From a virus: a stretch of DNA of 64,000 nt. The position numbers were made by a program, and so were the translations under genes. The DNA lies in IMG/VR virus record IMGVR_UViG_3300044922_000175, positions 1-64,000 of that record. One strand, given 5' to 3'. A model generated the notes under the pieces. That model was not told the origin of the DNA and did not search any database. It was given only the letters and a program-made list of their open reading frames with translations. Shown here piece by piece: positions 9,408 to 56,194 of the stretch. The number at the start of each line of letters is the position of its first letter. The stretch's first letter is position 1.

Positions 9408-9412
9408 AATAA

Positions 9413-9444
9413 CAAATTTATACAATATGAGCACTATTCAACAA
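9413..9444 (-). promoter_or_regulatory. Minus-strand promoter, TTG plus TAAATTTG
   Basis: Read on the - strand, TAAATTTG (9420-9413) matches TAnnTTTG. A TTG lies 21 bases upstream at 9444-9442, the expected Bacteroidota spacing. The element ends five bases before the ATG of the 9108-9407 gene, implying a leaderless or near-leaderless transcript. Confidence 0.6.
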
Positions 9445-37165: not shown

Positions 37166-40100
37166 TTATTTTACATAGAAGTCTGTTACATTATCATAAG
37201 ACTGCCACCTGTTTATTGTATACAGTACTGGCAATGCATCTGACCATTGTTTGTTAAGTTTTAACTGACCCTTTCTAGAACCTTGTTTGTAATACAAACT
37301 CTCCTCATCAAACGCATAGTTATAAGGAAAAGCAAATGTATCACTAACAGCCTCTCCTAATTCACCTAGTAATTTAGAAGATGCTATAGGACTCTTCATT
37401 AACATGTAAGCATTAGCTGGACTAATGAAACTTGTTAATTCTGAAGTCTGTCTATCTGCTTGATAAGCTAAAGCATTTAATAGTCTCTTAAGCTCTTTGT
37501 CATCATCATCAAAATCCATACCTGCAATTAATGAAGATACAATATGAGCAATAGCAAAAGAAGATAAGATAAATGTAAGTTCTGTTGCTACCCGGTTTAA
37601 GTTTTTAATCTGATCTTCTCTTAAACTTTCTTTAGCATCCCTAATCTTAGTAAAGATATCTCCTCTTGCAGATTTAATATGAGATATAAAGCTAGCAAAT
37701 GTCCGGTATCTTCCCTCAATCCAACCAAGGTTTTCATCATAGTACTCTCTTTTAAATCTTGCTTTGAATGCTGGATATACCCACTTGTGAAACTGGAATA
37801 CTAATCTACCAATACTATAATCTTGTAAAGCAGCTCTATCTTCATTAGAGTAGTTACCGTGGATTTGTTTGTTTACTTCACGAATATTATTTCTAATATC
37901 ATAACGTTCTGTATCTGATAACTCAAAGCCCGGCTTTAAAGAAACATTACCGGTATTAGGATCAAAGTCATAAGCATCATATAAAGAGAGTGTCTCACCT
38001 TTATCATTTGTAATTTGCTTAGACATAAGAATAGCCATGCCTACTTTACTCTGCACGTTTGTTTCCGCAGCATCTTGTAAAACATAACCCCATTCCATTA
38101 ATCCACCTTTCTCCTGTACCTCTCTTTGAGCAACACTATCTACCATTCTGTATAGATAAAGTAAAGCTTCATATTTAGACTGAGGATCTTTTTGACCATA
38201 GTAACCTTTACTACTTGCTAATCCTTTAAATGTTCCAGGTAAATACTCACTGTTATAAATACCTACAGCTCTAAGCATAGCTTTTTTATCATAGAATAAT
38301 CCACCACCGGTTTCTATACCGTTGTTTATTCTACCCATAGCATAGTTATTTATATTACCAAAGATGTTAAATCCTACATATGATAAAGATGTTGCATTAA
38401 GTACTTTACTTATAACATTATCTACAGTAGTCTTATCAAACTCTTGCTCTTCATAGTAAACCATCTTTAACCATTTTTTCAAACGTGTAGCTGTTCTACT
38501 CTCTAAACCAGGTATAGTTTTAGCTTTAGTACCCGTAGCAGTACGTACCAATACATTCTGAGACTGACTATACTCTCTATTCTCAACAACTCTCTTTAAT
38601 GCAAAGATTGTATCTTCAGCATTACTCAAGTGTTGATAGTTAGAAGCCATTGCTCTAAACTTAATTAAGCTATCTACTAGATCAGTATTAAGCTCATCTT
38701 TACTAAGCATAGATTCATTTCTTTTGAGCTGCTGTTCTAACTCTTTTAACTGTTCTCTATACTTAGTTGTAGATACCTTACCATCTCTAAATTCAGTTTG
38801 TAATGCTTCTATCTCAGATTTAATCTTATCTATAGTAAACTGACTTTTAAGCTTACCTGTAAAGAAAATAGGAGGTGTTTCAATAATATTACCCTCTTCA
38901 TCTGTAAGAACCACCTTCTGGTAACCAGCATCTGTAAAGCTTTTAAACCAACTAGAAATAGATTTAGTCAAAAGTGTAGTAACACTAGCCGGATCCTCTT
39001 TTAATTTATTTAAGAAATTCTGCTTTTGCCTTGGTAACTTACCAGTCATATCCTTCTTAACTGAAGGAGGTAACATCTTAAGAGCTCCGTTTTCAAATTC
39101 TTGTAACCAGAAATCATAGAAATCTTTCTGTGCTCTCTCTAGTTCTGTAGTAGGATTCATGATCTTGATATACTTTTCATCAAGCATGTTCTCACCGGTA
39201 CTAGCAATGTCACGTACTTCTTTAAACTCTGGCTTTACAAACCATCCTTTTCTAACTGTAGTAGCTCCAAAATAACTACCATCTTTCTCTCTCTGTGCAG
39301 TTACATACTCAGAGTAGTTATAGTATTTATTCTTATACGCTGCATATTCTGCATCTGATACACCACGTTTTTTTCTCCAGCTATAGTTTCTATACTCTTC
39401 ATACTTATCCCGGATCTTTTTAAAATCATCAGTGTATTTGTGATAGTCACCATCTTCTGGTTTATTGTTAACTATTTTTTCAGATCTAGTAAACTCACTA
39501 TAAGCTTGTCTATTTAAGAAAAGTTCTTGGTTAAACTTAATATCTTCAACTTTAGCATCATCTAAATTTGGTATATTTATGTATTCTAACCAGTTATTAT
39601 TATTGTCTACAAGCTTATTTCTTAACTCGTAGAACTTCTTATAGTATTGATAACCAATCTTTTGTACATATCTACCAGTAAAATTTCCGTCCTTATCATA
39701 AACCAACATGAAATCATAATTGGGTTTACCACTTGATAAAGATGCTAATCTATTACCTAATGCAATTGCTTGATCACTAAATGCTTGTACATCATCCTCT
39801 ATCTTTTGCTTCTCTCTTTTATATACTTTATCAATAAGAGCTAAGATAGTATCCGTACTAGTTGCTAAGTCACCAAGTTGAGCATCAGCTACAGAGATAT
39901 CTGTAGTTTCTTTGATGATGGCTTTTATATCATCCTCTGTAAAATTTCTAGTAGAATTAGTTTTAATAAAATTAATAGTAAAGTTTTCTATAGCCTGATC
40001 AATTGTAGTATCAGCAATATTTAATAAATCTGTTACCGCAATTGCAATCTCTCTCTGACCAGGATTAACAACATTACTTAAACTAAGATTACGGATACCT

Positions 40101-42454
40101 CTATAGGTTTCCATAAACTTACTGAACATAAGTACTACAGAAATATAATCTTCTTTAGATACTGACTTAGGATTAGAGGCATACTTAATAAAGTTCTCTA
40201 ACTCTTCTTTAGAACTATTTAAGAATCTTCCTAATGCTATATCAGCTTTACCGGAGTTTATCTCAGTACTAAGTATAGCAATCAAACTATTAATTTTATC
40301 TATAGTCTGTTTCTTAGGTTTAACTTGTTTAGAGGAATCAATAATACTTTGTAATGCATCATTACGTTTTACTAACTGTGAAACTACATCCTTCATGAAC
40401 AAAGCAACGTTTGTATATTGCTCATCTGTTAAACCTGCTTCGGGTTTCTCATCTTCAGGACTTAAGAAATTAGGATCATTAGTTACATTGTAACCATTCT
40501 TTACTTTTAACTCATCAAGTGTATTCTTAAAAGGATCTGTAGGAATAATTGTATTTACATAAGCTAAGTTTTCTGTCTCATTATGCTGCACCACTCCTTC
40601 TACTCTAAACTTTTTTACCTTTTGATCTTTACCTTTACCTTCTATATCTAGATTATAATGATACGTAGATACACCAGATACTGGGAAACCATTAATGTTA
40701 GCTAACTTAGCATAACCCATTACCTGGATGCTTTGTTGTTGTTTAGTAGTTAATCTCTGACCTTGTAATAAAGTACCCTCATTTGTAGGATACGTAATCT
40801 CATAATATTCTGGATCTTTTATACTTGTTTTAGATACTTTTAAATCTACAATGTACAATGACCCATCTGGTTTAATGATAAGGATATCTAATGAGCCGGC
40901 AATTTTAGATTGATCATCAGCAAGAATAACTTGTGGTAAAATTATAGAACCATCTAATGTAAGTGTAGCTACATATGCACTAAGTGAATCATATGCATCC
41001 TCAGCTAAAGCCGGTTCTAATACAGTAACATTTTCTAGCGCCTCATCAAATGTTTTACCATTTATAATATCCTGAAGAATCTTATCAAAGTCTTTACCAA
41101 ACAATCTATTCATTTCATATAAACCATCTGGATCATTAAGACCACCTTTGATAGCAGAAGTCATAGACTTATATTCTTCTCCGGTTTCTAGATTAGTATA
41201 TGTATGTGTATCTTCATCTAGGAACATTGGAGTATCATATAGAGTATCTACTATATCTCTCTGTAAATTATTTACTGCTCTGTTCTTAGCAGCTTTTTTA
41301 GCCTCTTCTTTTCTGATATACTCAGGATCATTCTTATCAATACTAAGTTTAACTGTAGCCTGTACATCACTTGCAATGGGCCCAGTAGTAAATCTTAACT
41401 CTTTAGTATTTAATAACTTAGCAATATCAGTAAGAGTAACATTCTCTTTTAGATCTTGTACGTTAATGTTTAATTCATTTCCGGTAATTGCTTTGTAGAT
41501 ATCATTAACTAATTCTGCAAACCATTCTATAAACTCTCTAATAGCAGTTTTAAAAGAACCACCTGGTTGATTCTCATACTCTTTTTTAAAGTGTCTAGTT
41601 AATGCTTGAGTTACTAACTCTACATCTCTATACTTCTCAAAGAATCCTTTTTGTCCGGTGTAACTATCTTTAATCTGTTGAGTTAAAACAGGGAATGCTT
41701 GTCTAGCTTCAATAAGTAACTTACCAAAGATATCAGGTCTACCTACAAATAAAGCATCTACTACTGGATGCAGCATTTCTTCAATAGCTGTCTCTGTAGT
41801 AACCCTACTTTTAATTATGTATGCAGTGTTCTGATAATAAAAACTTTTAATCTTATCAAAGTTTAAATTAGGTTTAACCGGTAACTTATCATAGATCTTT
41901 TTAGCTTCTTCTACAGTTACAATCTCATAACTTACATCTGGTAAAACAGCAGATAAGTATTCTAGTACATCAATAGCATTATTAGTATTCTCTGATTCTC
42001 CAATTACATCAACTGGAGTGAACATGTTCTCTTTAAGAATAAACTCTATACTATTTTCTGTAGTTCTAAAATCATATGTCTCAGCCGGTATTCTATTGTA
42101 GTTCAGATAGTTAATAATCCGTTGTTTGTTATTATTAAGAACAGACTGATCTATTTCCCTCATACCTTCTGTAGTACCAGTAACAAAGTATCTAACTTGA
42201 CCATCTATTGTAACACCAGATATCATGCGTCTTTGTCTTAGGTTTCCTATGACAGCACTACCATATTGTTTTTTCTTAAGACTAAATCTTGCTTGATTAG
42301 CTTTTACAATGTCTTCTGCTTCTGCAATACTAGGAAATGTATCTGTATTTTCTTTGACTTGATAATTATCAATAATACTATCTACAACAAGATTATTATT
42401 GTATACACCCATTAGGGCTTTATATTCCGGTAAGTTTCTATTATGACAAGCCAT
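37166..42454 (-). CDS. 1762-residue virion-type protein with PD-(D/E)XK nuclease domain
   Basis: Very large protein. At about residues 222-232 it has IEEMLHPVVDA, which looks like a degenerate zincin motif. At about 405-590 there is a RecB-like PD-(D/E)XK nuclease domain: an AIKGG start, GSLDILIIKPDGSLYIVDLK (about 520-540) and later QQSIQVMGYAKL. Long coiled-coil regions follow, then a membrane-like segment near the C-terminus (about residues 1625-1645). It lies three bases downstream of the 4566-residue gene and belongs to the same unit. Likely packaged and injected. Confidence 0.7.
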   Translation of the reverse strand: MACHNRNLPEYKALMGVYNNNLVVDSIIDNYQVKENTDTFPSIAEAEDIVKANQARFSLKKKQYGSAVIGNLRQRRMISGVTIDGQVRYFVTGTTEGMREIDQSVLNNNKQRIINYLNYNRIPAETYDFRTTENSIEFILKENMFTPVDVIGESENTNNAIDVLEYLSAVLPDVSYEIVTVEEAKKIYDKLPVKPNLNFDKIKSFYYQNTAYIIKSRVTTETAIEEMLHPVVDALFVGRPDIFGKLLIEARQAFPVLTQQIKDSYTGQKGFFEKYRDVELVTQALTRHFKKEYENQPGGSFKTAIREFIEWFAELVNDIYKAITGNELNINVQDLKENVTLTDIAKLLNTKELRFTTGPIASDVQATVKLSIDKNDPEYIRKEEAKKAAKNRAVNNLQRDIVDTLYDTPMFLDEDTHTYTNLETGEEYKSMTSAIKGGLNDPDGLYEMNRLFGKDFDKILQDIINGKTFDEALENVTVLEPALAEDAYDSLSAYVATLTLDGSIILPQVILADDQSKIAGSLDILIIKPDGSLYIVDLKVSKTSIKDPEYYEITYPTNEGTLLQGQRLTTKQQQSIQVMGYAKLANINGFPVSGVSTYHYNLDIEGKGKDQKVKKFRVEGVVQHNETENLAYVNTIIPTDPFKNTLDELKVKNGYNVTNDPNFLSPEDEKPEAGLTDEQYTNVALFMKDVVSQLVKRNDALQSIIDSSKQVKPKKQTIDKINSLIAILSTEINSGKADIALGRFLNSSKEELENFIKYASNPKSVSKEDYISVVLMFSKFMETYRGIRNLSLSNVVNPGQREIAIAVTDLLNIADTTIDQAIENFTINFIKTNSTRNFTEDDIKAIIKETTDISVADAQLGDLATSTDTILALIDKVYKREKQKIEDDVQAFSDQAIALGNRLASLSSGKPNYDFMLVYDKDGNFTGRYVQKIGYQYYKKFYELRNKLVDNNNNWLEYINIPNLDDAKVEDIKFNQELFLNRQAYSEFTRSEKIVNNKPEDGDYHKYTDDFKKIRDKYEEYRNYSWRKKRGVSDAEYAAYKNKYYNYSEYVTAQREKDGSYFGATTVRKGWFVKPEFKEVRDIASTGENMLDEKYIKIMNPTTELERAQKDFYDFWLQEFENGALKMLPPSVKKDMTGKLPRQKQNFLNKLKEDPASVTTLLTKSISSWFKSFTDAGYQKVVLTDEEGNIIETPPIFFTGKLKSQFTIDKIKSEIEALQTEFRDGKVSTTKYREQLKELEQQLKRNESMLSKDELNTDLVDSLIKFRAMASNYQHLSNAEDTIFALKRVVENREYSQSQNVLVRTATGTKAKTIPGLESRTATRLKKWLKMVYYEEQEFDKTTVDNVISKVLNATSLSYVGFNIFGNINNYAMGRINNGIETGGGLFYDKKAMLRAVGIYNSEYLPGTFKGLASSKGYYGQKDPQSKYEALLYLYRMVDSVAQREVQEKGGLMEWGYVLQDAAETNVQSKVGMAILMSKQITNDKGETLSLYDAYDFDPNTGNVSLKPGFELSDTERYDIRNNIREVNKQIHGNYSNEDRAALQDYSIGRLVFQFHKWVYPAFKARFKREYYDENLGWIEGRYRTFASFISHIKSARGDIFTKIRDAKESLREDQIKNLNRVATELTFILSSFAIAHIVSSLIAGMDFDDDDKELKRLLNALAYQADRQTSELTSFISPANAYMLMKSPIASSKLLGELGEAVSDTFAFPYNYAFDEESLYYKQGSRKGQLKLNKQWSDALPVLYTINRWQSYDNVTDFYVK

Positions 42455-42457
42455 CTC

Positions 42458-45400
42458 TTATAAATAACATCTTTTTATTTGTTCTACAAAACTATTCTGA
42501 TTACCACCACTAGTATTTACGTAATCTTTGTACTGTTCTACAAAATTAACAAATGAGGTAATATTTAAATCTTGTTTTATTTTTTCTTTTTGTTCATCTG
42601 TAAGTTCATTCATATAGAACTCATTAAGTACTGGGTATTCTGCTTTAGCTTTAAGAACAGCTCCCATAGATACATTAAATGCGGCAGCTGGTGCACTTGC
42701 TAACATAGCATCAATATCTCCAAATTCTTCAGTTTGTTCTTGAGCTTTAGGTGTTAAGGTCTTAGCTAATTCTTCAGGTGATTTTGCAGTTGTATCAAAA
42801 GGTTTACCATCTTTTTCATATGTAATTTTCTTACCTTCAGTTTTAACAGTAATACCATTAGAAGCTAGAGTACTTGATATATTAGCTGGAGCTTTACTAA
42901 AATCTATATTGGCTAATTGTTTATCTATACTTTGATCAAAATCTATATTATTTAAATCAGAAAATGCACCAGGATTATTAGCTACATTCTTATTTCTTCT
43001 ATTAGCAAAAATACCTGTAAATGTTGGTAAACTACCAGGAATTACAAAGCCTGCAGCAAATTGTTTTCTAGAACCAATAGGATCAAATTTCTCATACTCA
43101 GCAGATACACCAAACGCATACATGTCACCAGGTTGAATAAGATCAGCTAAGTTTTCCTCTTGTTTAACTCTATCTCTCTTTATAGTTTTTAATCTATAGA
43201 AAGTTTTTTTATTAAATGTATAGTCTATTGTTTTAAGTACTATAGGAAAACCTATTTGTGTTTTACCATCTTTACTCTCTTGTACTAAGCCTGCAATTCT
43301 TAAATAGTTTAAGTTATACCTATAGAACTTTTTACCTTCATCAGATAATCTGGATTCTCCAGGTAAAGCTACCATAGGTTGTACAATCTGATAATTACCA
43401 TTCTGATCAACTATCATCTCATCACCTTTATAGTTAGATACGTCACCCAAAGGAATTAACTCTCTTTCAAATGTGGTATTTTTAAATACATTAATCTGAA
43501 TACCAGTATCAGTTGTAGTAATTGGTGATTGTATTTTAGTATTTTCTGGAATATCTAATTTTTTCTTAAGTTCTTTAACCTCATTATTCTTAGCTAAATT
43601 TGTTTTTAGTGTTTTTGTAAAGAACGTTGTATTAGAACTTTGTAAGAATCCTCTAACAAACTCATTGTATAATTGATTAATACTTGCACCAAATGTCTTT
43701 TTAACAAAAGCATTATCAGCGCTTCCTTTTAATGCATTAACTGCAGCACCAGAGGAGTTAAGAATCATCTCAAACATAAAGTTTGGCATTACTCTAATAA
43801 AAGATCCAGACTTAAACTGACCGCCATCTTTAACAAGTAAGTAATGGAATAGATCAATTGCATAAGGTCTAGTTAACTCATTAGTATATAACTCCATAAA
43901 GCTATACTGAATCTTGTTAAGCTGTAATTTACTTAACTTGGTCCAGTTATTAAAGTCTACTTTATTAATACCATCTTTGTTAGATTTATTAGCACCAGTA
44001 ATTGCAAATAAGAATTTGTTTGCAAAATAGTTATTAGGACTTAACTCTCTTAACTTCTTAACTACATCAGTTACATTATCCATATTTTCAGGTAACGTGC
44101 TTGCTGCCTGGTCATAAATCATTCCATTATTCAAAGAAGCTAATGCTCTTTTATAACCACCTTTATTTAGAATGTTTAGATAAGCTTTGATTGCAAAAAA
44201 AGAAATTAAGTTTTGATCTAGTGACTTCTTAAAGTTTTTACGGTCCCTAAAGTTAACTTCTGTATTTGCTAATACTATATCGCGCATTCTATTAACTACA
44301 GGTGTACGGTTTAACATTACACTACCAGTTAAAGATCTAATTTCTCTATATACAGTAAAGTTAAATCCAAATGTAGTATTCTGATTACGTAGTAAAGAGC
44401 GAATATCAAATGGTATTGAACTAGTTTCAAACTCTTTGTCAGTCATCTCTAAACCTAAATCTACAGCTTTATCATAAATCTCATCAAACTCTGTAAGATC
44501 TTTAGGTAGTCCCTTATTTACTTTTAATACTGCAGATACATTCATAAAAGTATCTGATTGAAGATTTAAAGTTTTAAAGCTATTAAGTACATATACCTGA
44601 ATTTCAGGAGTATTTCTTTTAATACCTGCAATAAGATCTGCTGTTGTAATATTAGTAGGAATTTCTTTTACATCATACTTTTCTATTAGATTCTTAATAA
44701 TAGTATTCTTACTTACTTTTCTTTCAGCATCTGTAGCATATGAAGATTTATTTGTTCTTAAAGTTTTATAGAACTTACGTATTGCCGGTTGATTGATGAA
44801 TAGTAAGCTATCCTCTAATGATACACCCTGTGCTACCATATTAGCTACAACACCTAATGAATCAATATTAAGATTTAACTTAGCAGCAAGACGTTCTTTA
44901 GCATTATCCGTCATTGCTGATACTAAAGCAGACAAAATATCAGCTATCCTTTTACCATCATATTCTCCAGTTTTTGGATTATAAGCTTTAGTTTCACCAT
45001 ATGTATCAAACTCTTTACCATTAAGTTTAAATCTTAATGTTTTAAGTTCTATTGTCTCACCTGTTTCATCTGTATAAGAACTTGCTTTTCTAATATTAAT
45101 ATTATTAGTATTTAATAATGAATAAACAAGTAGAGAGTTAACTGCCGGTCCAATGTTTCTAGCACCTTCTTTGTTATTTCTAAATGCATAGTACTTACCA
45201 AGTAAAGTATCAATATTATATTTACCTTCTTCCAACTGATCTTTAAGTTCAGGAAACTGCTCGGTAAAGCTTTTAACAATATTAATAAGAGGATCTACAG
45301 TGGCTACCTGGAATGCTTTAGGAATCTCCCCTTCTTTTGCAGTAACCATATCTGTATTATTTAATAAAGCAATACGAGCATTTACAATGATATTGTTAAG

Positions 45401-48400
45401 TGCTCCTTGATAAGGTTCATACCCTAACTTTTCTATTTTAGTATTATACTCATCTGCAGTAGATGGTAAATTTAAATATTGTAAAGCTGCTTTAGTAACT
45501 TCTTCTTGATTTATATAATCATCAAAATAATCAGAGTCTGAAATATCTATATCTAATTCCTGTAAAGCTTCTAGCTCATCAGCTTTTTCTTTTTTAAGAG
45601 CACTATAAAACTCAAAATATGCTTTCTTAAATTCTTTATTCTTACTAAACTGATATTTTACAAACTGATTGAACTTTTCTGTTTTAGTAGTTCCACTACC
45701 ATAAGCTATAAATTTGCCATTCTCTACTAACCATTCTTGAATGGCTATGTAAAGTTTATCAATATCAAAGTCAGCTCCAGATATCTCAATAAGTTCTTGT
45801 GGAAATACTGCAGATGATCCATAGTATACCGGCATAAAGTCTACAAGTTTAAGAGCTACTGCAGAGTGTTTATCCTGTGAAGGAATACGTACTCCAAACA
45901 TTTTAGCTACAGCATCTGGTATTTTATCACCTGGTTTAATAAAGCTTAATAACTCTTTAAAGTGAGCTGGCATAATAAACTCAGTAAAGTATCCGGTAAT
46001 CTTACCGTTCTCATCATACTCAGGTACGTTATGTCTTAAATCATCTACATAATAATCACCTACTTGTAAATCATTAAAGGTTCTATTTTCTAGATCAGAC
46101 TGAGTTTTAGGTGTACCATATTTAGAAGGATTAAGTTTAAATTCTTCAACTCTTATAAGCTCCCATCTTTTTGGTTGACCATTCTCATCTAACTCTAATA
46201 CTTTTTTAAGTTGTTTTACACCATAGTCAGATACCAATGCTACAGCATGTCCTGGAACTTTTTCAGATAAAACACCTTTAGAGAAATATGATAAGAACAA
46301 CTCAACAAACTTGTCAATAGTAATGGGTGAGTTAAGATCATATTTAGGTTCTCCTTGCTCATCTAGTTCAAAGAACTCAATCATTTGAGCATCACCTGCT
46401 GAAGATTTTAATGTTTCAATAGCATATTTTTGGAATGCTGCAAGTTTAGGAGTTACTGTCCCAGCTGCAATAGATTTTTTAACCTCTTCTAATCCTGAAT
46501 CTAAAGTAAAGATTGCATTTCTTTTTTCAAGATAATTGACTTTAACTCTATTAAGAGATGAATTTTGATAAATCTTTTTAAGGTCTCCAACAGAAATGTC
46601 GGTACCCATAAAGTTAACTATTGTTTCATCATTTTGTTCAGCTGTAAGAATTGTTTTAATCTGAGTAGTATCTGTAATTTTAACTTTATTAGAAGGGTTC
46701 TCTAATTGTAATCTCCAATACTTAGTACTAGTCTCAATAAAGTTTCTATCAGTAATACTATTTACATCACTAGCTACATTTGTCTTTTTACCTTTAGATC
46801 CAGATACAGGAATTGCTAAACTTACAGTTTCTCTATCTTTTTCATATGCTTCAAGTGTATTACGCAAACTATGTAATTCTTCTTTACCAGGTAATGCATA
46901 TTGAAACTTATTACCATAAGAAGTAAATTCTTTAGTTAATACAAAACCAGAGGTCTTAATATATGTTTGACCGTCAAAGTATACTAACTTAATTGAGTTA
47001 GTAGCAGCATCAAATGATACAGCACCTTTTTGAGTACTATCACCAAAGAAGAAATCACCAGTTACTGTTTCACCATTTTCAATTTTGTTTAATAACTCAG
47101 CTTGAATAGGAGATAATTTACCTAAACCAAATAATGTATAACGTAAAGCTTTTACAGTCATCCACATCTGAGCATTTGCTTTTTCTCCTTTACCACCCGC
47201 ATATTTAGCTTGAAATAAAGGATCAGAAAGAGTAACTATATGTGCAGTTTTAAATGCATGTTTAATACCTAATCTTTCATCTGTTATAATAGCTTCAATG
47301 TTAGCACCAGTAGCATTAGATCCCTTAGCTCTTTTAACTTCATCTACGGCATCTTTAAATGATATAGCATGGTCACCATGCATTAATTGGTTAATAGCTG
47401 TAGTATTGATAAAATCATTTACATATATCTGTAAAAGATTATATCTGTAATCATTATTTTTTAAATTAAAAAAACTATTTTTAGTTATATCTTCTTTAGC
47501 TTTCTTCTTATCTTTTTCTTTTATAGTAAAACCTTTAGTTACAAAAGATGCTAATGCAGATTTAGTTACTTTTCCATCCTCTACTTGTAAAATGTTATCC
47601 TCATCTAATAAATCTATTAGATAGTTTACATCATTAAGCATAGATTGAGTCATCTCTTTTTTAATCTGTGCTTTTTGTTTTTCTGTTAAAGGTAAATTTT
47701 CTTGAGCTTGTGCTTCTAATTCATTCTTTAAATCTTCACTTATTAGTTTACCAGTCTTAAATAAAGTAAGACCACGCATTTTACCAGTATTAAAGTCATA
47801 GATCTCATCTATAAACTCACCATTAGCTACTCTTTGAATACGAGTATACTCCTGTTCTACAAAACCAAGCATTGCGTTTTCTGCTTGTTTTGTTAAAGTA
47901 TTTTTACCGGATGCTTTAGCAGCGGCTTTAATTATAGGTAAGTTAACTACATTACCAGTACTAGATGCTTCAAGGACACGAATAAGATGGGTGGATGTAC
48001 CAAACTTAACTTTATTTCTTTCTTGTACATCTCCGGTAGAATATAGATCAAGTAAACTAACAATAAATTCTTCAGGGGTAAAACTACCATATGTAGTTCC
48101 TTCACGTCTGTTAACCTCAAGTTGTTTATTTTCAATTACATCACCATCTTCTGTTTCATTAAGACTACTTACTTTTTGTCCATCAATTCTTTTAACTGTA
48201 ACTAAATCAAGAGATGCTAAGAAGTTTGGATCATTTAATAAATAGTTATTTGCTAAGAATGGATCCTTTAATAACTCTTCAATACCACCGGCTTTCTTAA
48301 TCTCATTTATCTTAACTAAGTGATATGATGGTAATTGGTGTACATATACTAATTGCCCTTCTGCATTTTTCCAGCTAGTAGCATATACAGACTCATCAAA

Positions 48401-51400
48401 TATGGCATTTGCTTTTGCAAGATTATATAAACGTGTAGTAGCACCACCTTCTAGTACTTCTGTTTCTGGAGTAACTTCTCCTGTTTCAGCATCTACAGTT
48501 ATTTCATACTGAACATTAATAAAAGGATTTTCTTCAGTATCTACTAAATCAGATAACGCATCTATATCTTCTATAGTAATTGGTGTTACGTTAGAATATA
48601 TCTTAAATAATTTAATTTGCTGATCTGTAAGAGTAGTTATATTATTTGCAATAGAATAAGACAAATACATACCACTTAAAGAAATACCTAAAGTCTCCAT
48701 TAATTCTACAGATAACTTATTAGTTACCTGGATTAACTCATCATCAGTATATTTCTTAGTTGGTGCCATTGCTGTTTTAATCTTAGTTAAAACAAGTTTA
48801 GCTTTAGCTTTTGATTCAGGAGTTAACTTACTTTCATAAATATTACTATATGCTTGTGACCACTGATCAAATTGCACTTTACCAGAATCTTTTCTATTTG
48901 CAGAAATAATATTTGCAATCTCTTTTTTAAGATCCTTATTGATAAACAAATAGTCAATGGCATACTGACCAAAACCTTTTGTAAAAGATTGGAACAAATA
49001 ACTATTTTTAACATTAGAGAGATCAGGATTACCTTCTTCATCAAATGTTACTCCGGTCTGAATAAAGAATTCATCAATGACTTTACCAGACTCAAAGTTT
49101 CTATCTTTATATAGATTAAGTTTTAAAAGAACTTCATCAATAGTTTCAGTTCCAGCAATTGCTTTAAGAATACCATTGTATACAGTAGAACCATCTACTG
49201 ATTGAATATAAGGCGTACCATCTAAAAATTGTACATTACCAAATTCATCAGCTGCTTGATATGTAATAGTAGATATCCAAGATCTTAAAAACTTAGATAA
49301 ACTACCAAAACCACCTACACTAGCAGCACCCTCGGTATAATTCTGCTTACCTCTTTCTCCTAACTCATCTATAATATCGTCTGAAGCATCTTGCTCATTA
49401 GTTTCTTTAATACTTAAAATAGCTAAATGCTCACGTACTGCCTCCTTAAGAATTTCTCTATTTTCAATTAAGCTAAATATACTTCTATACTCTTTTAATT
49501 TAGCAATTTCTTTACTTTTAAGATCTATATATTGTTCTAATTTTGGATTATAAAGTTCTTTATAGTCATTTAATATTCCATCTAATAAATCTTCTGTATT
49601 AGTTTGCTTATCTGCATCTTTAAGTTTGTTATTATATATAGCAGCTACACTTGCAGATAATCTAGTACCCTCTTGTTCTGGTAAATACTTATCTACTCTA
49701 ATAAGATTAACTTCACCTTCAGCAGCAAATGTAGAATCTTCAATGACATCTGTACCAATTTTAATAGCTTTAAGTACTGGTTCACTGATATCAAATGGAG
49801 AGTCTGTATATCTATTAGTAACTACCTTACTATTTCTATACTTACCGGCATCAATATTGTCAAATAAAGAGTTTAATTCATTCTTACCAAATCTGCTAAA
49901 TACTTTCTTAATAAGCTCAACAATTTTAGCAAACAAACTTTTGTTTACATGACTAGTCTCTGTTTTTTTATTAATCTTCCAAGCTTCAAACTTATCAGCA
50001 AGGTACTCTTCATACATTCTCTCTTCTAACTGAGACTCACTCATTGCTGCATAAAGAGGATTTAATAAGCGCATCTCTTCTTTAGCCAAAGAGAATGACT
50101 TACCTTCTTTACGCAACTGATCCCTTAACTCTTTTTTAGCAATTGTTAAGTATCTAGATATCTGAGCATCACTTAGTAATAAACGAAATACTGCGTGGAA
50201 AGCTTCATGATATTTAAAAGGAGAACTAGCAGATGTATATATAGTACCGTTAACTTCTACATTACCAGCTACATTAGACAATGAAGATACAAATGCACCT
50301 ACAGTCTTACTACCATTATATAAGTTATTCTTAAGAGTATTTAGATCTTCTACAGTTATAAAGTCTGGAAGATTGTTTTGTACCCAGGTTAAGAACTCAG
50401 TTAAGTTAGTTATATCAGATTCAGTATAACCAGCATCTACTACTTTTAATCCTATAGAATTAGATAATACTTCAATCTGACCTTTAATAGCTAATACCTC
50501 TGGAGAGTTTTCAGCTTGTGTTCTAATCTCTCTTTTTTCAGCTACAGTTAATTCTTCACCTTTTTCAGCAAATCTTTTATCTCTTAATTCATCATCAACC
50601 TCATCCATTTTATCATACAGTTCAGCTTGTAACTGTTTAATTTGTTGTGGAATAGATTGTTGAGCAGCTAATACTTTATTTAAAACATCTGCAGAACTTA
50701 CTTGAATAGGTTCTTTAGGTTTTTCAGTAGGTTCAGTAACGGGAACAACTGGAGGATTAACCGGTGCAACACCTCTTAATAAATCCGGATTAGATGTAGG
50801 ACTAGTAGGAGCTGAACTAAAGTCAATATTACCAAGGGCACTATCTAATACCGAATCATCTACTTTTGGTAATATAGGATTAGCTTGAACATCAGAAGCT
50901 GGCTCAAGCATATCTAGATACACAGATACATCTTTAACCACATTAGTTCCTACACTGGCTTCCATATCTAAAACCTGCAGCGTATCAATAGTCATTGGCA
51001 ATGCTGCTTTAAATGATCTACCAGTAAGGATAATATCCATTTTATTGGCTGGTAATTTTACATCAGCATCATGCTCTTTAATTGCAGTATTTAATAAAGA
51101 AAGTAATTCTGAAAAAGTATTAAACTCAGGATCATTAATAATCCTCTTACGAGTTATTTTATCAGTTCTAGAATTTTTATTTACAAAGTCTAAAACTATT
51201 GATCCATTAGGACTAACATAAACATCTAAGAACTTACCTTTATCTTTTAATGGTAAAGAAATAAATACCTTATTGCCAATATTATCTTCATTCCATACAT
51301 CATTGTATTCCTGAGCTAATGGTTTAGCTTCTTCATCTAGATTCTCTTTCTTAGTTAACTCAATTCTTTCTTTAATACTAGCAGCTAAAGTATTTAGCTC

Positions 51401-54400
51401 TTCAGAAGAAAGCTCTGGTGTAGTTAACTCAACAAATCTAACTTTACCATTAGGTAGTTTAACAACAGCTACATATCTACCATAGTTAAGTAAAGTATCA
51501 TAACCACTTTTGTATCTGGCATCATCAACTTCTTTAATGGTTGACTCTAATAAATCAGGATCAATATCTGTAATAGGAGAACCTTCTACAGTTATAATAG
51601 AACCATTCTTATATTTATTCTTTCTATCAATTACATAGATACCATTATTAATAGTGTTATATGCTAATTCAGAAAGTTTTGGTCTTTCCTCATCACGAGA
51701 TAGGAACTCATAAGATCCTAAACCAATATTAACATTTGCAACCTTCTTAAGATCTGAATAAGAAATCTCAACAGAATCGCTGCTACCTAATTTAGATTTT
51801 AAATAATTTAATAAAGCAACTTTGTTTTTGTAACTAGCTTTTATATTAGCAACAGCTTGATTATATCTACCATTCTTTAAATAGAAAGCTTGCTTAACTC
51901 TATCTGCATTTATTCTATCATAAGAGATAGGATTACCATTTACATCTAAGAATTGGAAAGATGTAGGGTTAGGTAAGTAACCAATCTCTTCACCATTAAA
52001 TACTAATGCAATTGCATATGAATCAGTAAATAAACCAAGTGATTGATTTTCTTTCTGATCTTCTAATTTAAGGTAGGCATATCTCTGAGGTGATTTATTT
52101 AGATTAGTAAATCTAATACTTAATCCCTTTTGTAATTGTTCTATGGGAGTATCTCTTAATAAATTACTTAGACGTGCTGTTGCATCTTTCTGAGATTCAC
52201 CCTCCATTCTTTTACCCCAAGCTTTATCTAATACACTAATAGAATCAAACCTTGATGCGTATTCTTTTTTGTCAATAGGAGCTCTCTCTAATTTAAATCC
52301 AGTAAAAGATTTAGTAGTAAGAACGGCACCAGTTTTAACATTCTTAAGTTTAAGATTAGAACCAGCAGCAATTTCTGCAGGATAAGAGAGCACTATATAC
52401 TCATTGTTTTTTGTATCTGATATAATCTGTCCATTAACTAATGGAACATTATCAAATACAAACTCCTTTTTATTTTTAGCTAAATAGTTACCAATTCCTT
52501 TTTGTGCTTTCTGAGCTTCTTCTAAACTTGTATAAGCATCTACCTCAAAAGGTATTAACTCATCTGGTTTATTTGTTGCATTAATAGCATTAGTACCATC
52601 ATTTAATTTTACAAAATAAATATCTCCAATTTCTGCACCTTCAATAGATCCGCTAAGCTTAGTTATAAATACACCATTATATCCAGGTGAAACAACGCTT
52701 TCACCCTCTTCTAATGCTGTAGTAACGTATTGATTCTCATCTCTTTGTTGAATAAAGATATCAGAGAATGTTACATTATTTTTATTTAATACATCAAAGA
52801 TTAAAGGTGTTCTAGCATTAGTTCTTAGCCACTCTGTAAACTCAGGTTTAGTTTCTGTAATGGCATCATACGTTCCTTCTAACTCTGTAATAGCATTAAT
52901 AATACTAATCGCTTTTTTACTTGTTACAAACTCTTCAAATGATACAGGAATATCAGCTTCTCTTAAAGTCTTTAAGTAATCATCATAAGCTCTACGTACA
53001 ATTGTCTGAGTAAACTCACTTACATCTTCAATATCTTCTGAACCAAATTCTTCCTCTTCTTCTGTAGTATCTGTAGAAAATTGAGATGGCTCTTTGGGTT
53101 TAGTATTAGATGGAGTTTGTTTTACTTCAACTTTTGTTTTTACTTCAAACTCTGATACAAAAGCTTTAATATTCTGAAATCTAGCATCTTCTACACCAAA
53201 TAATTTATTGCTATTTAAATCTCTAAACTTTATATCTGGATCAGTTAGAATGAGTTCTTTAAGCTCATCAAAACTATTTGTTTCTAAATTCTTTAAATAT
53301 TTAAGATCAATAACAAATCCACCAGCAGCTAATGATTTTAAGAATATACCAATCTTAGATGTTTCAGCATATTTCTTAAATGCTTTCTTAAAGAACTCCG
53401 CCCTTCTTTTATCTCTAGCAACAATTAAAGTGCGCTCTCTTTGAGCAAGCTTAATAAAATTATTAGGATCATATAAATCAGACAGAACTTTGTTAAAATT
53501 AGTCTTATCATAATTAAGCGCATAGTAATCAGTAAAGATTCTATAGGCTTCATTTAGATCTGCAGGATTAAGTGTAGTACCTTTCTCATCTAAAAGAACC
53601 TTCATGTAATCAGTAAAGGCTTTCTTTAAATAAGAGGTCTTTCTTACTTCTACAGGATCATTAATATTCTCAATACGGGCAAGATTAGTTTTTAAAGATT
53701 CTAAAGCTTTTAACTTCTTCTTCTTATTATTAGTAATCTCAATAAGAGCTGGATCAGTTATATCTTTACTTGAATCAATTTCTGCAGTTAATAAGTTTAT
53801 TTCTGTATCAATACTTGGAATACTCAAAGTAGCTGTAACATCAGAGTAACTTAAATTACCAACTCCTGCAATAGATGACATCTGTTTTGTCAAATCAGCC
53901 ATGCGAGTTTTAGCTTGCTCTAAACCATGCAAACTAAATACTGCAGTTTTACGGGCCTCTTCAAAAGCTTTATGGTTTTGTAACTCATTAATAAATCCAG
54001 TAATAGCTTCGGGAGTATCAGCAAATTTATATGTATTAGGATTATAAGGATTCTTAAATGCAGAAAACTGCTCATACTGATCTTTAATTTGACCAGCTCT
54101 ATCAATAGTAATATCTAATACTTGCTTTGCTTCTTCATCAGTAACATCATCCTTTAAATCAAATGCCTCTTTTAATTCTTCACCAGTCATTTGTTTCATA
54201 TCCTCTAGTTTCTGAATTAAGAAATCAAACTTATTAGTTTGTAGTGCTGTATAAACACTATTAAATCGAGCTATATCCTTAAGATCGTGGAATGCTTTTT
54301 CATCAAATGATTTTCTAGCATTAACCATATCAGTACCTGCTTTAATTTGTACTAATAAGTTATCTATATCAAGAGCTAAAACTTTATTACCATTATTAAT

Positions 54401-56158
54401 AGCATCATTTAATTCAACAGCTATCTTATCAAATCTGGCACTTTCTTCTGCATAAGCTTTTCTATACTCTTCTGGGTTTTTAGCTTGTGCTATCTTACCA
54501 ATAATATTTTTAGTGCTACCATAAGCTCTGTTAGCTACAGCAGTAGAAATACCAGTAAGACCACCCATTAAGAAACCTGAAGCAAATACTTCAATACCTT
54601 GTGCTGATGCTTGATCTTTAAGATTGTCATAGGCATCTGCTAAATAAGCTACTACACCTCCAGCTTCTGGAGTATCATATAATCTTTCATAGTAATCTGT
54701 AGATGCCCCAGAAATAATCTCTTGAGAAATTTCTTGAAGACCTTCAGATAAGTTTTTGGAGAAATAACTACTAGCAAAATTTAAATATGTCTTTGGAGTC
54801 TTAAGACCTCTTACGCTTTCAGCAAAAGATTGTCTTATACCCATAGTCTCAAACTGACCAGTCTTCTCTGAAAATCTTAATGTACGTCCACTTAATTTAC
54901 TTTCTTCTACAATACCTGAAGCTGTCTTACCTAAAGTTCTCTTACGACCTTTGTATAAGTTATCAAAAGTAATATTGTTTGTAAGAAGAATGAGGGGAGC
55001 ATTTATTAGACCCGTTGTAAAACCAGCATCTGATGCTTTCTCATAAATTCTATTTAATCTATCTTGATCTGGATATACTCCATTCTCAGTAATGTATTCA
55101 TTAATATGCTTATCAATAAAATCATTCTTAACTCCTCCGCCTTCCATAGAAGCTTCAGCAGTAGCATAACTAATCTGCTTCATATCTCTTACAAAGTCGG
55201 CAACCCCTCTTACTGAATTAGCTAATCCTAATACAGGACTTTCTGCAGTAATAAAACTCTTAACATTCTTAAATGTATTAGGAACGATGTTCTTAGCAGT
55301 TGCTTCAGCTACATTTAATGCGCCTCTACCAATAGCTGCTACATCCATAGCCTTAATTGTATTGTAAGCTTGTCTAGCAGCGTTAGCATCAAACAACGCA
55401 GAGATAGATTTGATTGTACCGGCTGTCTTTGCAGCACTAGCAGCAAGAGCAGCAGGAAGAGCCATACCATCAGATAAAGCCACCGCACCAGTAAGTAATG
55501 CTTCAGTAGCTAAATAGTCTGCAGCAATACCTGCAACAAATCCTGATTGTAAAGCTAAGTTAGAAACAAAACCAGCAGCACCACCTCTTGTACTACCACG
55601 TTCTGCCATAATCTGGGAGAACTCTCTAGCACCGGTTTCATCAGTCATAGAGAAATCACCAGTTGCCATATCAGCAAGACTTCTATATCCTGATTGAACA
55701 ACAGATAATCCTAATGCAGGAATACCACCAGCTGCTCTAAATAGATCTTGATACCAACTTCTATTCTGATTATATAAAGCTTCATTATTACTTACAGGAT
55801 TAAAACCTAACTTATAAAAGTTATCACTATCGTTATAGTATCTATCAAAGTTTGTTTGTTGGTATCCAGGCTGAAAGTATTTTTCTTTTGAGTTCTGAAA
55901 TGCAATATCAGATTCAGTAATAGGTTTTGCCATTGCTTGTTTAGCAACATCAAAAGGATTACTAGGATCATAATCTACAGCAACACTACCAAATGCTGAA
56001 GGCACTGGAACCCCAGGAACAGCATAAGTATCAGTTACGGATATTAGCGGCTCATTAGTTGGCGCAATACTTGCTTGAAAAGCATCTGATCCTTCAAAGT
56101 TAGAAGGCAAACCGGGTTCAACACCTAGTGGTGGAATTGCATTGTCAAATTCTTCCAT
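42458..56158 (-). CDS. Giant virion RNA polymerase / zincin polyprotein of crAss-like type
   Basis: Protein of 4566 residues. The metal-binding loop ISGADFDIDKLYIA has D3463, D3465 and D3467, the DxDxD of the RNA polymerase double-psi barrel. It is preceded by RIPSQDKHSA, as in cellular beta' subunits. Earlier, YHEAFHAVFR holds a zincin motif (H1984, E1985, H1988) with a downstream EEYLADKF. The N-terminal 500 residues have Ala/Gly-rich hydrophobic segments of injected proteins. In crAss-like phages this polymerase is packaged and injected to transcribe early genes; the protease may process the polypeptide. The precise domain limits are inferred. Confidence 0.8.
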   Translation of the reverse strand: MEEFDNAIPPLGVEPGLPSNFEGSDAFQASIAPTNEPLISVTDTYAVPGVPVPSAFGSVAVDYDPSNPFDVAKQAMAKPITESDIAFQNSKEKYFQPGYQQTNFDRYYNDSDNFYKLGFNPVSNNEALYNQNRSWYQDLFRAAGGIPALGLSVVQSGYRSLADMATGDFSMTDETGAREFSQIMAERGSTRGGAAGFVSNLALQSGFVAGIAADYLATEALLTGAVALSDGMALPAALAASAAKTAGTIKSISALFDANAARQAYNTIKAMDVAAIGRGALNVAEATAKNIVPNTFKNVKSFITAESPVLGLANSVRGVADFVRDMKQISYATAEASMEGGGVKNDFIDKHINEYITENGVYPDQDRLNRIYEKASDAGFTTGLINAPLILLTNNITFDNLYKGRKRTLGKTASGIVEESKLSGRTLRFSEKTGQFETMGIRQSFAESVRGLKTPKTYLNFASSYFSKNLSEGLQEISQEIISGASTDYYERLYDTPEAGGVVAYLADAYDNLKDQASAQGIEVFASGFLMGGLTGISTAVANRAYGSTKNIIGKIAQAKNPEEYRKAYAEESARFDKIAVELNDAINNGNKVLALDIDNLLVQIKAGTDMVNARKSFDEKAFHDLKDIARFNSVYTALQTNKFDFLIQKLEDMKQMTGEELKEAFDLKDDVTDEEAKQVLDITIDRAGQIKDQYEQFSAFKNPYNPNTYKFADTPEAITGFINELQNHKAFEEARKTAVFSLHGLEQAKTRMADLTKQMSSIAGVGNLSYSDVTATLSIPSIDTEINLLTAEIDSSKDITDPALIEITNNKKKKLKALESLKTNLARIENINDPVEVRKTSYLKKAFTDYMKVLLDEKGTTLNPADLNEAYRIFTDYYALNYDKTNFNKVLSDLYDPNNFIKLAQRERTLIVARDKRRAEFFKKAFKKYAETSKIGIFLKSLAAGGFVIDLKYLKNLETNSFDELKELILTDPDIKFRDLNSNKLFGVEDARFQNIKAFVSEFEVKTKVEVKQTPSNTKPKEPSQFSTDTTEEEEEFGSEDIEDVSEFTQTIVRRAYDDYLKTLREADIPVSFEEFVTSKKAISIINAITELEGTYDAITETKPEFTEWLRTNARTPLIFDVLNKNNVTFSDIFIQQRDENQYVTTALEEGESVVSPGYNGVFITKLSGSIEGAEIGDIYFVKLNDGTNAINATNKPDELIPFEVDAYTSLEEAQKAQKGIGNYLAKNKKEFVFDNVPLVNGQIISDTKNNEYIVLSYPAEIAAGSNLKLKNVKTGAVLTTKSFTGFKLERAPIDKKEYASRFDSISVLDKAWGKRMEGESQKDATARLSNLLRDTPIEQLQKGLSIRFTNLNKSPQRYAYLKLEDQKENQSLGLFTDSYAIALVFNGEEIGYLPNPTSFQFLDVNGNPISYDRINADRVKQAFYLKNGRYNQAVANIKASYKNKVALLNYLKSKLGSSDSVEISYSDLKKVANVNIGLGSYEFLSRDEERPKLSELAYNTINNGIYVIDRKNKYKNGSIITVEGSPITDIDPDLLESTIKEVDDARYKSGYDTLLNYGRYVAVVKLPNGKVRFVELTTPELSSEELNTLAASIKERIELTKKENLDEEAKPLAQEYNDVWNEDNIGNKVFISLPLKDKGKFLDVYVSPNGSIVLDFVNKNSRTDKITRKRIINDPEFNTFSELLSLLNTAIKEHDADVKLPANKMDIILTGRSFKAALPMTIDTLQVLDMEASVGTNVVKDVSVYLDMLEPASDVQANPILPKVDDSVLDSALGNIDFSSAPTSPTSNPDLLRGVAPVNPPVVPVTEPTEKPKEPIQVSSADVLNKVLAAQQSIPQQIKQLQAELYDKMDEVDDELRDKRFAEKGEELTVAEKREIRTQAENSPEVLAIKGQIEVLSNSIGLKVVDAGYTESDITNLTEFLTWVQNNLPDFITVEDLNTLKNNLYNGSKTVGAFVSSLSNVAGNVEVNGTIYTSASSPFKYHEAFHAVFRLLLSDAQISRYLTIAKKELRDQLRKEGKSFSLAKEEMRLLNPLYAAMSESQLEERMYEEYLADKFEAWKINKKTETSHVNKSLFAKIVELIKKVFSRFGKNELNSLFDNIDAGKYRNSKVVTNRYTDSPFDISEPVLKAIKIGTDVIEDSTFAAEGEVNLIRVDKYLPEQEGTRLSASVAAIYNNKLKDADKQTNTEDLLDGILNDYKELYNPKLEQYIDLKSKEIAKLKEYRSIFSLIENREILKEAVREHLAILSIKETNEQDASDDIIDELGERGKQNYTEGAASVGGFGSLSKFLRSWISTITYQAADEFGNVQFLDGTPYIQSVDGSTVYNGILKAIAGTETIDEVLLKLNLYKDRNFESGKVIDEFFIQTGVTFDEEGNPDLSNVKNSYLFQSFTKGFGQYAIDYLFINKDLKKEIANIISANRKDSGKVQFDQWSQAYSNIYESKLTPESKAKAKLVLTKIKTAMAPTKKYTDDELIQVTNKLSVELMETLGISLSGMYLSYSIANNITTLTDQQIKLFKIYSNVTPITIEDIDALSDLVDTEENPFINVQYEITVDAETGEVTPETEVLEGGATTRLYNLAKANAIFDESVYATSWKNAEGQLVYVHQLPSYHLVKINEIKKAGGIEELLKDPFLANNYLLNDPNFLASLDLVTVKRIDGQKVSSLNETEDGDVIENKQLEVNRREGTTYGSFTPEEFIVSLLDLYSTGDVQERNKVKFGTSTHLIRVLEASSTGNVVNLPIIKAAAKASGKNTLTKQAENAMLGFVEQEYTRIQRVANGEFIDEIYDFNTGKMRGLTLFKTGKLISEDLKNELEAQAQENLPLTEKQKAQIKKEMTQSMLNDVNYLIDLLDEDNILQVEDGKVTKSALASFVTKGFTIKEKDKKKAKEDITKNSFFNLKNNDYRYNLLQIYVNDFINTTAINQLMHGDHAISFKDAVDEVKRAKGSNATGANIEAIITDERLGIKHAFKTAHIVTLSDPLFQAKYAGGKGEKANAQMWMTVKALRYTLFGLGKLSPIQAELLNKIENGETVTGDFFFGDSTQKGAVSFDAATNSIKLVYFDGQTYIKTSGFVLTKEFTSYGNKFQYALPGKEELHSLRNTLEAYEKDRETVSLAIPVSGSKGKKTNVASDVNSITDRNFIETSTKYWRLQLENPSNKVKITDTTQIKTILTAEQNDETIVNFMGTDISVGDLKKIYQNSSLNRVKVNYLEKRNAIFTLDSGLEEVKKSIAAGTVTPKLAAFQKYAIETLKSSAGDAQMIEFFELDEQGEPKYDLNSPITIDKFVELFLSYFSKGVLSEKVPGHAVALVSDYGVKQLKKVLELDENGQPKRWELIRVEEFKLNPSKYGTPKTQSDLENRTFNDLQVGDYYVDDLRHNVPEYDENGKITGYFTEFIMPAHFKELLSFIKPGDKIPDAVAKMFGVRIPSQDKHSAVALKLVDFMPVYYGSSAVFPQELIEISGADFDIDKLYIAIQEWLVENGKFIAYGSGTTKTEKFNQFVKYQFSKNKEFKKAYFEFYSALKKEKADELEALQELDIDISDSDYFDDYINQEEVTKAALQYLNLPSTADEYNTKIEKLGYEPYQGALNNIIVNARIALLNNTDMVTAKEGEIPKAFQVATVDPLINIVKSFTEQFPELKDQLEEGKYNIDTLLGKYYAFRNNKEGARNIGPAVNSLLVYSLLNTNNINIRKASSYTDETGETIELKTLRFKLNGKEFDTYGETKAYNPKTGEYDGKRIADILSALVSAMTDNAKERLAAKLNLNIDSLGVVANMVAQGVSLEDSLLFINQPAIRKFYKTLRTNKSSYATDAERKVSKNTIIKNLIEKYDVKEIPTNITTADLIAGIKRNTPEIQVYVLNSFKTLNLQSDTFMNVSAVLKVNKGLPKDLTEFDEIYDKAVDLGLEMTDKEFETSSIPFDIRSLLRNQNTTFGFNFTVYREIRSLTGSVMLNRTPVVNRMRDIVLANTEVNFRDRKNFKKSLDQNLISFFAIKAYLNILNKGGYKRALASLNNGMIYDQAASTLPENMDNVTDVVKKLRELSPNNYFANKFLFAITGANKSNKDGINKVDFNNWTKLSKLQLNKIQYSFMELYTNELTRPYAIDLFHYLLVKDGGQFKSGSFIRVMPNFMFEMILNSSGAAVNALKGSADNAFVKKTFGASINQLYNEFVRGFLQSSNTTFFTKTLKTNLAKNNEVKELKKKLDIPENTKIQSPITTTDTGIQINVFKNTTFERELIPLGDVSNYKGDEMIVDQNGNYQIVQPMVALPGESRLSDEGKKFYRYNLNYLRIAGLVQESKDGKTQIGFPIVLKTIDYTFNKKTFYRLKTIKRDRVKQEENLADLIQPGDMYAFGVSAEYEKFDPIGSRKQFAAGFVIPGSLPTFTGIFANRRNKNVANNPGAFSDLNNIDFDQSIDKQLANIDFSKAPANISSTLASNGITVKTEGKKITYEKDGKPFDTTAKSPEELAKTLTPKAQEQTEEFGDIDAMLASAPAAAFNVSMGAVLKAKAEYPVLNEFYMNELTDEQKEKIKQDLNITSFVNFVEQYKDYVNTSGGNQNSFVEQIKRCYL

Positions 56159-56164
56159 TTAGAA

Positions 56165-56194
56165 CAAATTTAATTTATTATCTAATTGCGTCAA
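56165..56194 (-). promoter_or_regulatory. Minus-strand promoter, TTG plus TAAATTTG, before the giant gene
   Basis: TTG (56194-56192) and TAAATTTG (56172-56165) are 19 bases apart on the - strand, a good Bacteroidota promoter. The element ends six bases before the ATG at 56158, as at other leaderless candidates. It lies in the 19-base gap and the end of the upstream 853-residue gene. Confidence 0.55.

Follow-up and report, generated by a model that had tools for sequence, protein, structure and literature searches.

The fused polymerase gene and its described relatives

The Crassvirales-type transcription block consists of a gp47-type protein, an RNA polymerase (RNAP) and a gp49-type protein. 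It is present in the first 64,000 nucleotides (the window) of the IMG/VR virus record IMGVR_UViG_3300044922_000175, where a 4566-residue open reading frame (ORF) joins the first two parts and a zincin domain in one chain, and a single cysteine stands near each of the two chain ends that meet at the next gene. The closest described systems arrange the same parts differently. In phi14:2, the polymerase gp66 (6VR4) is a single chain with two barrels as in the window, and g067, g066 and g065 follow the same order, but they are three separate subunit genes, g067 is without HExxH, and a HExxH lies in g065 at residue 245. In crAss001 (Kehishuvirus), a HEAFH zincin forms the end of gp47, gp50 carries a DxDxD motif and cysteine pairs are found at the termini, all as in the window; unlike in the window, the genes are unfused and gp47 is on the opposite strand. 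Mass spectrometry detected gp47, gp50 and gp49 in crAss001 virions, as a passage of PMC10172136 reports. The giant proteins of gut Suoliviridae (cr1_1, cr4_1, cr10_1 and cr56_1; 4460-4551 residues) share the fused gp47-zincin-RNAP layout, with a gp49-like gene adjoining in three of the four; the record of cr10_1 lists no further gene in its last 3.6 kb. They differ from the window protein in showing only about 21-45% identity in the matched stretches, in having 38 in-frame stops in each of two of them, and in carrying up to seven internal cysteines.

Earlier annotation already places a zincin in this gene block. In p-crAssphage (Carjivirus communis), gp45 is annotated as 'putative RNAP associated protein fused to zincin protease' and gp44 as 'putative RNAP catalytic subunit fused to unknown RNAP subunit'. 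This differs from the window in that the RNAP is fused to the gp49 type and the zincin is on the other chain, for which the zincin profiles of this analysis gave no significant match. The Rudgehvirus homologue carries the note 'ZnMc_tr'. Outside this group, N4-like virion RNAPs are likewise giant injected polymerases fused to a peptidase (MPTase) domain, and both the fusion and the idea of chain processing were published for them (passages of PMC5512222); unlike the window chain, they show no terminal cysteine pairing in the descriptions given in passages of PMC3715699 and PMC3915230.

The frame itself, with HEAFH and DFDID in one uninterrupted ORF, was confirmed as first annotated; it starts with ATG and ends with TAA. 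A stop-free frame of this length has a chance of about 10^-177 under the base composition, and the differences from the relative L001 fall on the three codon positions as 342/214/806, which indicates coding. The lack of stops had been taken as an argument against code reassignment, and this is true for the window phage; some gut relatives are different, with in-frame stops in four of the seven Suoliviridae giants read (38, 38, 148 and 78). Among 16 large window ORFs chosen for a count of stop codons, TAA was used 8 times, TGA 8 times and TAG never, and the giant frame is without in-frame TAG.

As a single query, the 4566-residue protein gave no above-threshold match in Pfam, PHROGs or PDB sequences, and relatives were needed. 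In a tblastn search of 50,697 phage records, the C-terminal half matched crAss-like polymerase genes in 104 records (21-24% identity among the 20 matches listed), and the region around the zincin matched crAss 'RNA-polymerase subunit' genes in three records that represent two genomes (E 4e-4 to 2e-3). By pairwise profile comparison, residues 130-958 and 1923-2110 align on gp47 of crAss001/cr112_1 and residues 2271-4367 on gp50, which places the fusion junction at about 2110-2271. HExxH is expected 0.008 times per protein by composition and was observed once. For DxDxD the numbers are 1.27 and 2, and since the motif alone is not rare, it counts only through its context, GADFDIDKLY; the pattern G-x-D-F-D-[IV]-D-K was present in seven of seven sequences of the first alignment, while later RNAP searches relied on DFD-containing patterns and are biased toward the motif. 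Structure prediction of the barrels, proposed as a check in the initial annotation, gave an AlphaFold model of residues 2875-4070 with a two-barrel polymerase fold (predicted local distance difference test (pLDDT) 80.1, predicted template modelling score (pTM) 0.75). Compared as a whole model, it matched 6VR4 (Foldseek E 2.2e-27; Z 21.3 over 824 residues at 3.6 A), followed by the RNAi polymerases QDE-1 and RDR2. The polymerase reading is thus strongly supported by both sequence profile and structure match. On these sequence and model comparisons, the ORF almost certainly encodes a gp47-gp50 cargo fusion from an environmental crAss-like phage, with the gp49-type subunit on the adjoining gene. 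By analogy with crAss001 and phi14:2, the chain would be packaged in the virion and injected.

Relatives were collected as six sequences from viral contigs first, and then as 80 polymerase-anchored and 80 zincin-anchored loci. In the polymerase-anchored loci, the zincin lies in the same ORF in 73, the ORF is cut by the contig end in six, and one (L065) is without zincin. The 68 distinct fused ORFs span 3078-5705 residues, the shortest of which may be frame-broken, and crAss-like RNAPs reach about 6000 residues according to a passage of a review (PMC10136315). The size that had been called very large for such a protein is therefore ordinary within the group, as is the gp47-RNAP fusion. Other families are built differently: each part has its own gene in the five Steigviridae read, and the four Intestiviridae join the polymerase to the gp49 type. 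This arrangement was read from the length and layout of the ORFs in crAss002, Rudgehvirus and cr271_1, with profile matches as a further basis in p-crAssphage and crAss002. The locus without zincin, L065 (IMGVR 3300024221_000011; L222 is the same contig), has a polymerase half 78% identical to L064, and its N-terminal 1707 residues are a different module with an unrelated HEYQH at 1679 near the polymerase, possibly owing to a module swap or a chimeric assembly.

Cysteines at the subunit ends

The window chain has only one cysteine, at residue 4564 of 4566, and the adjoining 1762-residue gp49-like product also has only one, at residue 3. Such ends were scored in the relatives within the last 15 residues of the upstream chain and the first 12 of the downstream chain. 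All 69 giants in one set had a cysteine within the last 15 residues, compared with 8e-5 per residue at other positions, and 59 of the 69 had exactly one cysteine. At RNAP-gp49 boundaries, both cysteines were present in all 118 distinct cases (duplicates dropped by identical last 300 residues only, start taken as the first ATG, gp49-like ORF required within 400 bases). Outside the boundary ends, there were 48 cysteines in 514,976 residues of RNAP ORFs and 14 in 195,518 residues of gp49-like proteins. Whether or not a gp49-like ORF followed, 133 of 137 distinct RNAP ORFs having a 3' stop carried the C-terminal cysteine. Among ORFs longer than 2500 residues, a C-terminal cysteine codon (TGT 114, TGC 13) was found in 127 of 133, and was absent in L130, L227, L250, L254, L256 and L257. 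L130 is frame-split between zincin and polymerase and has no cysteine at the false end; the apparent split of L215, which has a cysteine, was taken as an out-of-frame reading and left uncounted, and L180 and L182 are cut by contig ends.

The named Crassvirales gave the same picture. Sixteen were read and 15 had a boundary that could be scored (5 Steigviridae, 6 Suoliviridae, 4 Intestiviridae); the pair was present at 19 of 20 boundaries as annotated, comprising 10/10 in Steigviridae (crAss001, cr112_1, phi14:2, cr128_1 and cr85_1), 6/6 in Suoliviridae and 3/4 in Intestiviridae. If crAss002 gp33 begins at Met33, the last count becomes 4/4 and the total 20/20. In crAss001, cr112_1, cr128_1 and cr85_1, gp47 and gp50 are on opposite strands, so translational coupling fails to explain the pair. 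Where the gene is broken upstream of the zincin (L183 and L186), the pair is found at this break and again between the polymerase C-terminus and the gp49 N-terminus. Three single chains from IMG/VR (L254, L256 and L257; 5496-5641 residues) combine the polymerase with gp47-side and gp49 modules (the latter matched at pairwise E 2e-33, 9e-31 and 2e-31), and have zero cysteine and no HExxH; L256 and L257 are 81% identical, and L254 is about 42% identical to both. The RNAP-gp49 fusions of the four Intestiviridae also have no C-terminal cysteine. At the outer ends cysteines were rare: none in 61 gp49 C-termini, and one within the first 30 residues of 69 giants. Of 44 boundaries between a cargo protein and a giant, one had the upstream C-terminal cysteine and one the N-terminal cysteine of the giant, and none of 14 adjacent control pairs had both.

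These patterns suggest that gp47, polymerase and gp49 may form one covalently continuous string. In fused genes the continuity would be given by the peptide chain, and in separate genes by a disulfide between the C-terminal and N-terminal cysteines; when a gene splits, a cysteine would arise on each new end and the disulfide would replace the peptide bond, and when all parts are fused, no cysteine would be left. The disulfides would hold in the oxidising virion and periplasm, the string would pass through the tail like a train, one subunit after another, and the host cytoplasm would reduce the disulfides and free the subunits on arrival. Passages of PMC10172136 report other inter-protein disulfides in crAss001 virions. 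N4-like virion RNAPs are reported as cysteine-free, which was explained by their passage through tail and periplasm (passages of PMC3715699 and PMC3915230); cysteine depletion is common to them and most crAss-like members read, whereas the crAss-like block keeps a cysteine at each subunit break. No description of terminal cysteine pairing in polymerase cargo was found in the open-licence literature searched, including the disulfide passages of these three papers.

The cysteines may serve otherwise, as a common packaging tag, an inter-subunit metal site or an attachment to another virion protein. Cargo needs a packaging signal and the cysteines sit in short tails, as such roles would allow; still, the one-to-one pairing of C- and N-termini, the rarity at outer ends, the shift with the gene break and the cysteine-free fused chains fit linkage better, and we consider these other roles rather unlikely. 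On the same four grounds a head-to-tail covalent chain is favoured. The covalent string with ordered injection and release by reduction in the host was at first rated an even bet, and was raised to moderately probable because the fully fused, cysteine-free chains were found. To a similar degree, gene fusion and terminal disulfide are probably interchangeable solutions.

Several observations weigh against the string. The disulfide is inferred from residue positions alone, and the timing of its formation and its reduction after entry are inferred as well. The 118 boundaries are not 118 independent events, because the sequences are related. Control ORFs can have terminal cysteines as well: of 90, 11 carried one within the first 12 residues, 6 within the last 15 and 3 at both ends. 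Four of the 137 RNAP ORFs are without a C-terminal cysteine: L254 is fully fused and L179 is a 1010-residue fragment, probably frame-broken; in L227 the cysteine is 61 residues from the end and another ORF precedes gp49; L250 is broken inside the polymerase without a pair, although its second piece ends with the usual cysteine and meets a gp49 with Cys4. Members of the gut Suoliviridae and Intestiviridae carry several internal cysteines, a cysteine lies near the C-terminus of one Rudgehvirus cargo protein that is not part of the chain, and the cysteine-ended ORF upstream in L181 is without demonstrated gp47 homology. No thioredoxin-family match was found in the window's own record. As a separate observation, thioredoxin-like genes are annotated near the block in three gut crAss phages (L174, gp37 and gp39; L265, gp059; L267, note TRX).

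The zincin domain and its possible substrates

The zincin assignment was upheld in sequence, by the motif Y-H-E-A-x-H with a downstream E-E pair and by homology to the gp47 C-terminus (E 1e-13), but the fold itself was unconfirmed. All 69 domains compared, a set found in part by patterns containing HE, share Y1983, H1984, E1985, A1986, H1988, E2050 and E2051. The AlphaFold model of the region is a low-confidence sheet region (pLDDT 67) with no zincin among the fold matches listed, and the profile match to PPEP 6fpc is below threshold (E 0.038). Matches to alpha-hemolysin after the zincin had E 0.027 or worse and were judged chance.

Conservation of the site holds for the 69-domain set and fails in some other loci. 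Among 70 distinct RNAP ORFs, 61 have HExxH, one has EEGFH, and eight are without a zincin in the same ORF (L201, L223 and L243 are 5'-cut, L215 is frame-split, L222 is the L065 contig, L254 is fully fused, L258 is a short fragment and L261 has a split layout). All 61 zincins embedded behind a gp47 module in this tally keep HExxH; L256, L257, L259 and L262, which gave no polymerase profile hit, stand outside it. In L181 and L183, both from Spirosoma, and in the viral contig L186, the polymerase ORF begins at the zincin, and EE[ASG]FH replaces HEAFH, so that the first zinc histidine becomes Glu. The polymerase ORF is preceded by a gp47-like ORF in L183 (1993 residues, E 3e-23) and in L186 (at least 2071 residues, reaching the locus edge, E 2e-16). 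The L183 match, to the free-standing ORF of Spirosoma terrae, comes from a region of the window protein that overlaps residues 130-958. For L181, the end of an ORF lying 4.5 kb upstream is similar to no more than the final 57 residues of the L183 ORF (E 6.5e-4, probability 27.5). In L256 and L257, which are also fused to gp49, the embedded zincin is degenerate (WEAFR), and in L254, with the same layout, a zincin was looked for and none was found. The rule that the zincin histidine is lost exactly when the gene is split upstream was thus ruled out by the two embedded WEAFR motifs, which lie outside that tally. Loss of the zincin is tied to more than one layout, and the longest chains manage without it.

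The L181 and L183 blocks lie on 229- and 574-kb contigs of the cultured Bacteroidota Spirosoma oryzae DSM 28354 and S. terrae KCTC 52035; they have IMG/VR counterparts 120 and 152 kb long and are possible proviruses or phage-plasmids.

The initial annotation had suggested self-processing after packaging, in which the zincin would cut the giant chain inside the virion into gp47-like and polymerase pieces resembling the separate Steigviridae subunits. The invariant active-site motif in the 69-domain set agrees with this, as do the change from His to Glu in all three polymerase ORFs that begin at the zincin and the published idea of head processing for N4-like proteins (a passage of PMC5512222). 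An octapeptide pair, N-x-D-x-S-x-A-P, at residues 1777 and 4417 of the window protein and in its three closest relatives, with the copies changing in parallel, was also in its favour; pairs at a shuffling level of 1% or less were found in 4 of 69, one of them a different peptide. The pair was not found in more distant relatives and was set aside as a cleavage site. Cutting in the virion is further opposed by the dead zincin (L256 and L257) or none found (L254) in chains also fused to gp49, and by the HExxH kept on a gp47 with its own gene in four of five Steigviridae, phi14:2 g067 being the exception. The N4 virion RNAP, with its MPTase domain, is packaged unprocessed (again in a passage of PMC5512222). 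The cysteine pattern suggests that continuity is kept, and if the covalent string is right, the chain would be intact until entry, leaving little room for cutting in the capsid. Self-processing after packaging was therefore weakened and now seems highly improbable. The embedded WEAFR of L256 and L257 also lowered our estimate that the zincin cuts its own chain at all, from doubtful to unlikely, and self-processing is unlikely as a general role.

Alternatively, the zincin may be an injected effector against host, defence or other cargo proteins, for which the location on the polymerase chain only secures delivery. It is kept when unfused from the polymerase and lost in some lineages while the chain persists, as an accessory activity would be, and an effector is a published option for such domains (passage of PMC5512222). 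However, 73 of the 74 polymerase-anchored loci in one set that are not truncated retain it, which is rather constant for an effector, and it has no known substrate; we regard the effector role as a serious possibility that falls somewhat short of even. Action on another substrate is held to be possible at much the same level. Judged from sequence, the zincin is probably a peptidase acting after entry and dispensable in some lineages. The combined explanation, joining the identity of the chain, the covalent string and this role of the zincin, is the best one overall, and we hold it as marginally better than even.

A second zincin-like domain lies in the gp49-like neighbour. Among 75 gp49-like proteins, 59 have EExxHP, five have HExxHP and 11 did not match the pattern, three of which have EExxH within a different context. 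Profile comparison of the second with the first zincin gave pairwise E 1.6e-5 (probability 79), with HEAFH aligned on EEMLH. The motif is HEIMH in phi14:2 g065 and HEIIH in the ORF at the gp49 position of L186. In the Spirosoma and L186 blocks, the first zincin shows the His-to-Glu change that the second domain has in 59/75; L186 is reversed, with EE in the first domain and HEIIH in the ORF at the gp49 position.

The block in the window and its possible meaning for injection

Features of the transcription block in the window, with positions on the 64,000-nucleotide stretch
Feature	Position	Strand	Basis
Fused cargo protein (gp47-like module, zincin, virion RNAP), 4566 residues	42458..56158	minus	
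gp47-like N-terminal module, residues 130-958	53285..55771	minus	hhalign to crAss001/cr112_1 gp47 89-894, pairwise E 7e-8
Pro-rich hypervariable linker, residues 1741-1900, directly N-terminal to zincin	50459..50938	minus	among lowest-identity stretches, 29-sequence alignment
Octapeptide NIDFSSAP, residues 1777-1784, copy 1	50807..50830	minus	
Zincin domain, residues 1923-2110	49829..50392	minus	hhalign to gp47 2103-2293 of 2341, pairwise E 1e-13; motif 69/69
HEAFH, residues 1984-1988	50195..50209	minus	
Glu2050-Glu2051, candidate third zinc ligand	50006..50011	minus	present 69/69
gp50/gp66-like virion RNAP, residues 2271-4367	43058..49348	minus	hhalign to gp50, pairwise E 7e-30; 6VR4 E 9.7e-22, Z 21.3
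DFDID, residues 3463-3467, catalytic metal-binding motif	45758..45772	minus	
Octapeptide NIDFSKAP, residues 4417-4424, copy 2	42887..42910	minus	
Codon of Cys4564, sole cysteine of 4566-residue protein	42467..42469	minus	
gp49-like RNAP-associated subunit, 1762 residues, adjoining gene	37166..42454	minus	blastp to cr112_1 gp49-like, E 6e-31 (three-protein database)
Codon of Cys3, sole cysteine of 1762-residue protein	42446..42448	minus	
EEMLH, residues 225-229 of 1762-residue protein, second zincin-like domain, first His to Glu	41768..41782	minus	
853-residue protein at place of crAss cargo proteins, without cysteine	56178..58739	minus	position and cysteine count only

Two further ORFs, L177:4004-8740 and 8743-9594, match PHROGs called only 'virion structural protein' (E 6e-57 and 3e-8); 'muzzle' and 'tail tubular' are our own labels. 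The muzzle-like ORF (L177:4004-8740; G000 68004-72740) matches epsilon crAss-like phages (phi17:2, csAssE-Sib), 29 Flavobacterium phage records and Leptolyngbya phage Lbo-JY46, with 24-26% identity among the ten matches listed.

For crAss-like phages, ordered passage and release of giant folded proteins through tail constrictions of less than 50 A is described in a passage of PMC10172136 only as a hypothetical model. A cysteine pair at the subunit breaks of proteins that are nearly free of cysteine would be a simple mechanism for this, testable in cultured phages. The cysteine finding separates the continuity of the chain from the question of the zincin substrate and, if the proposed linkage is true, it would explain the free fusion and fission of these genes.
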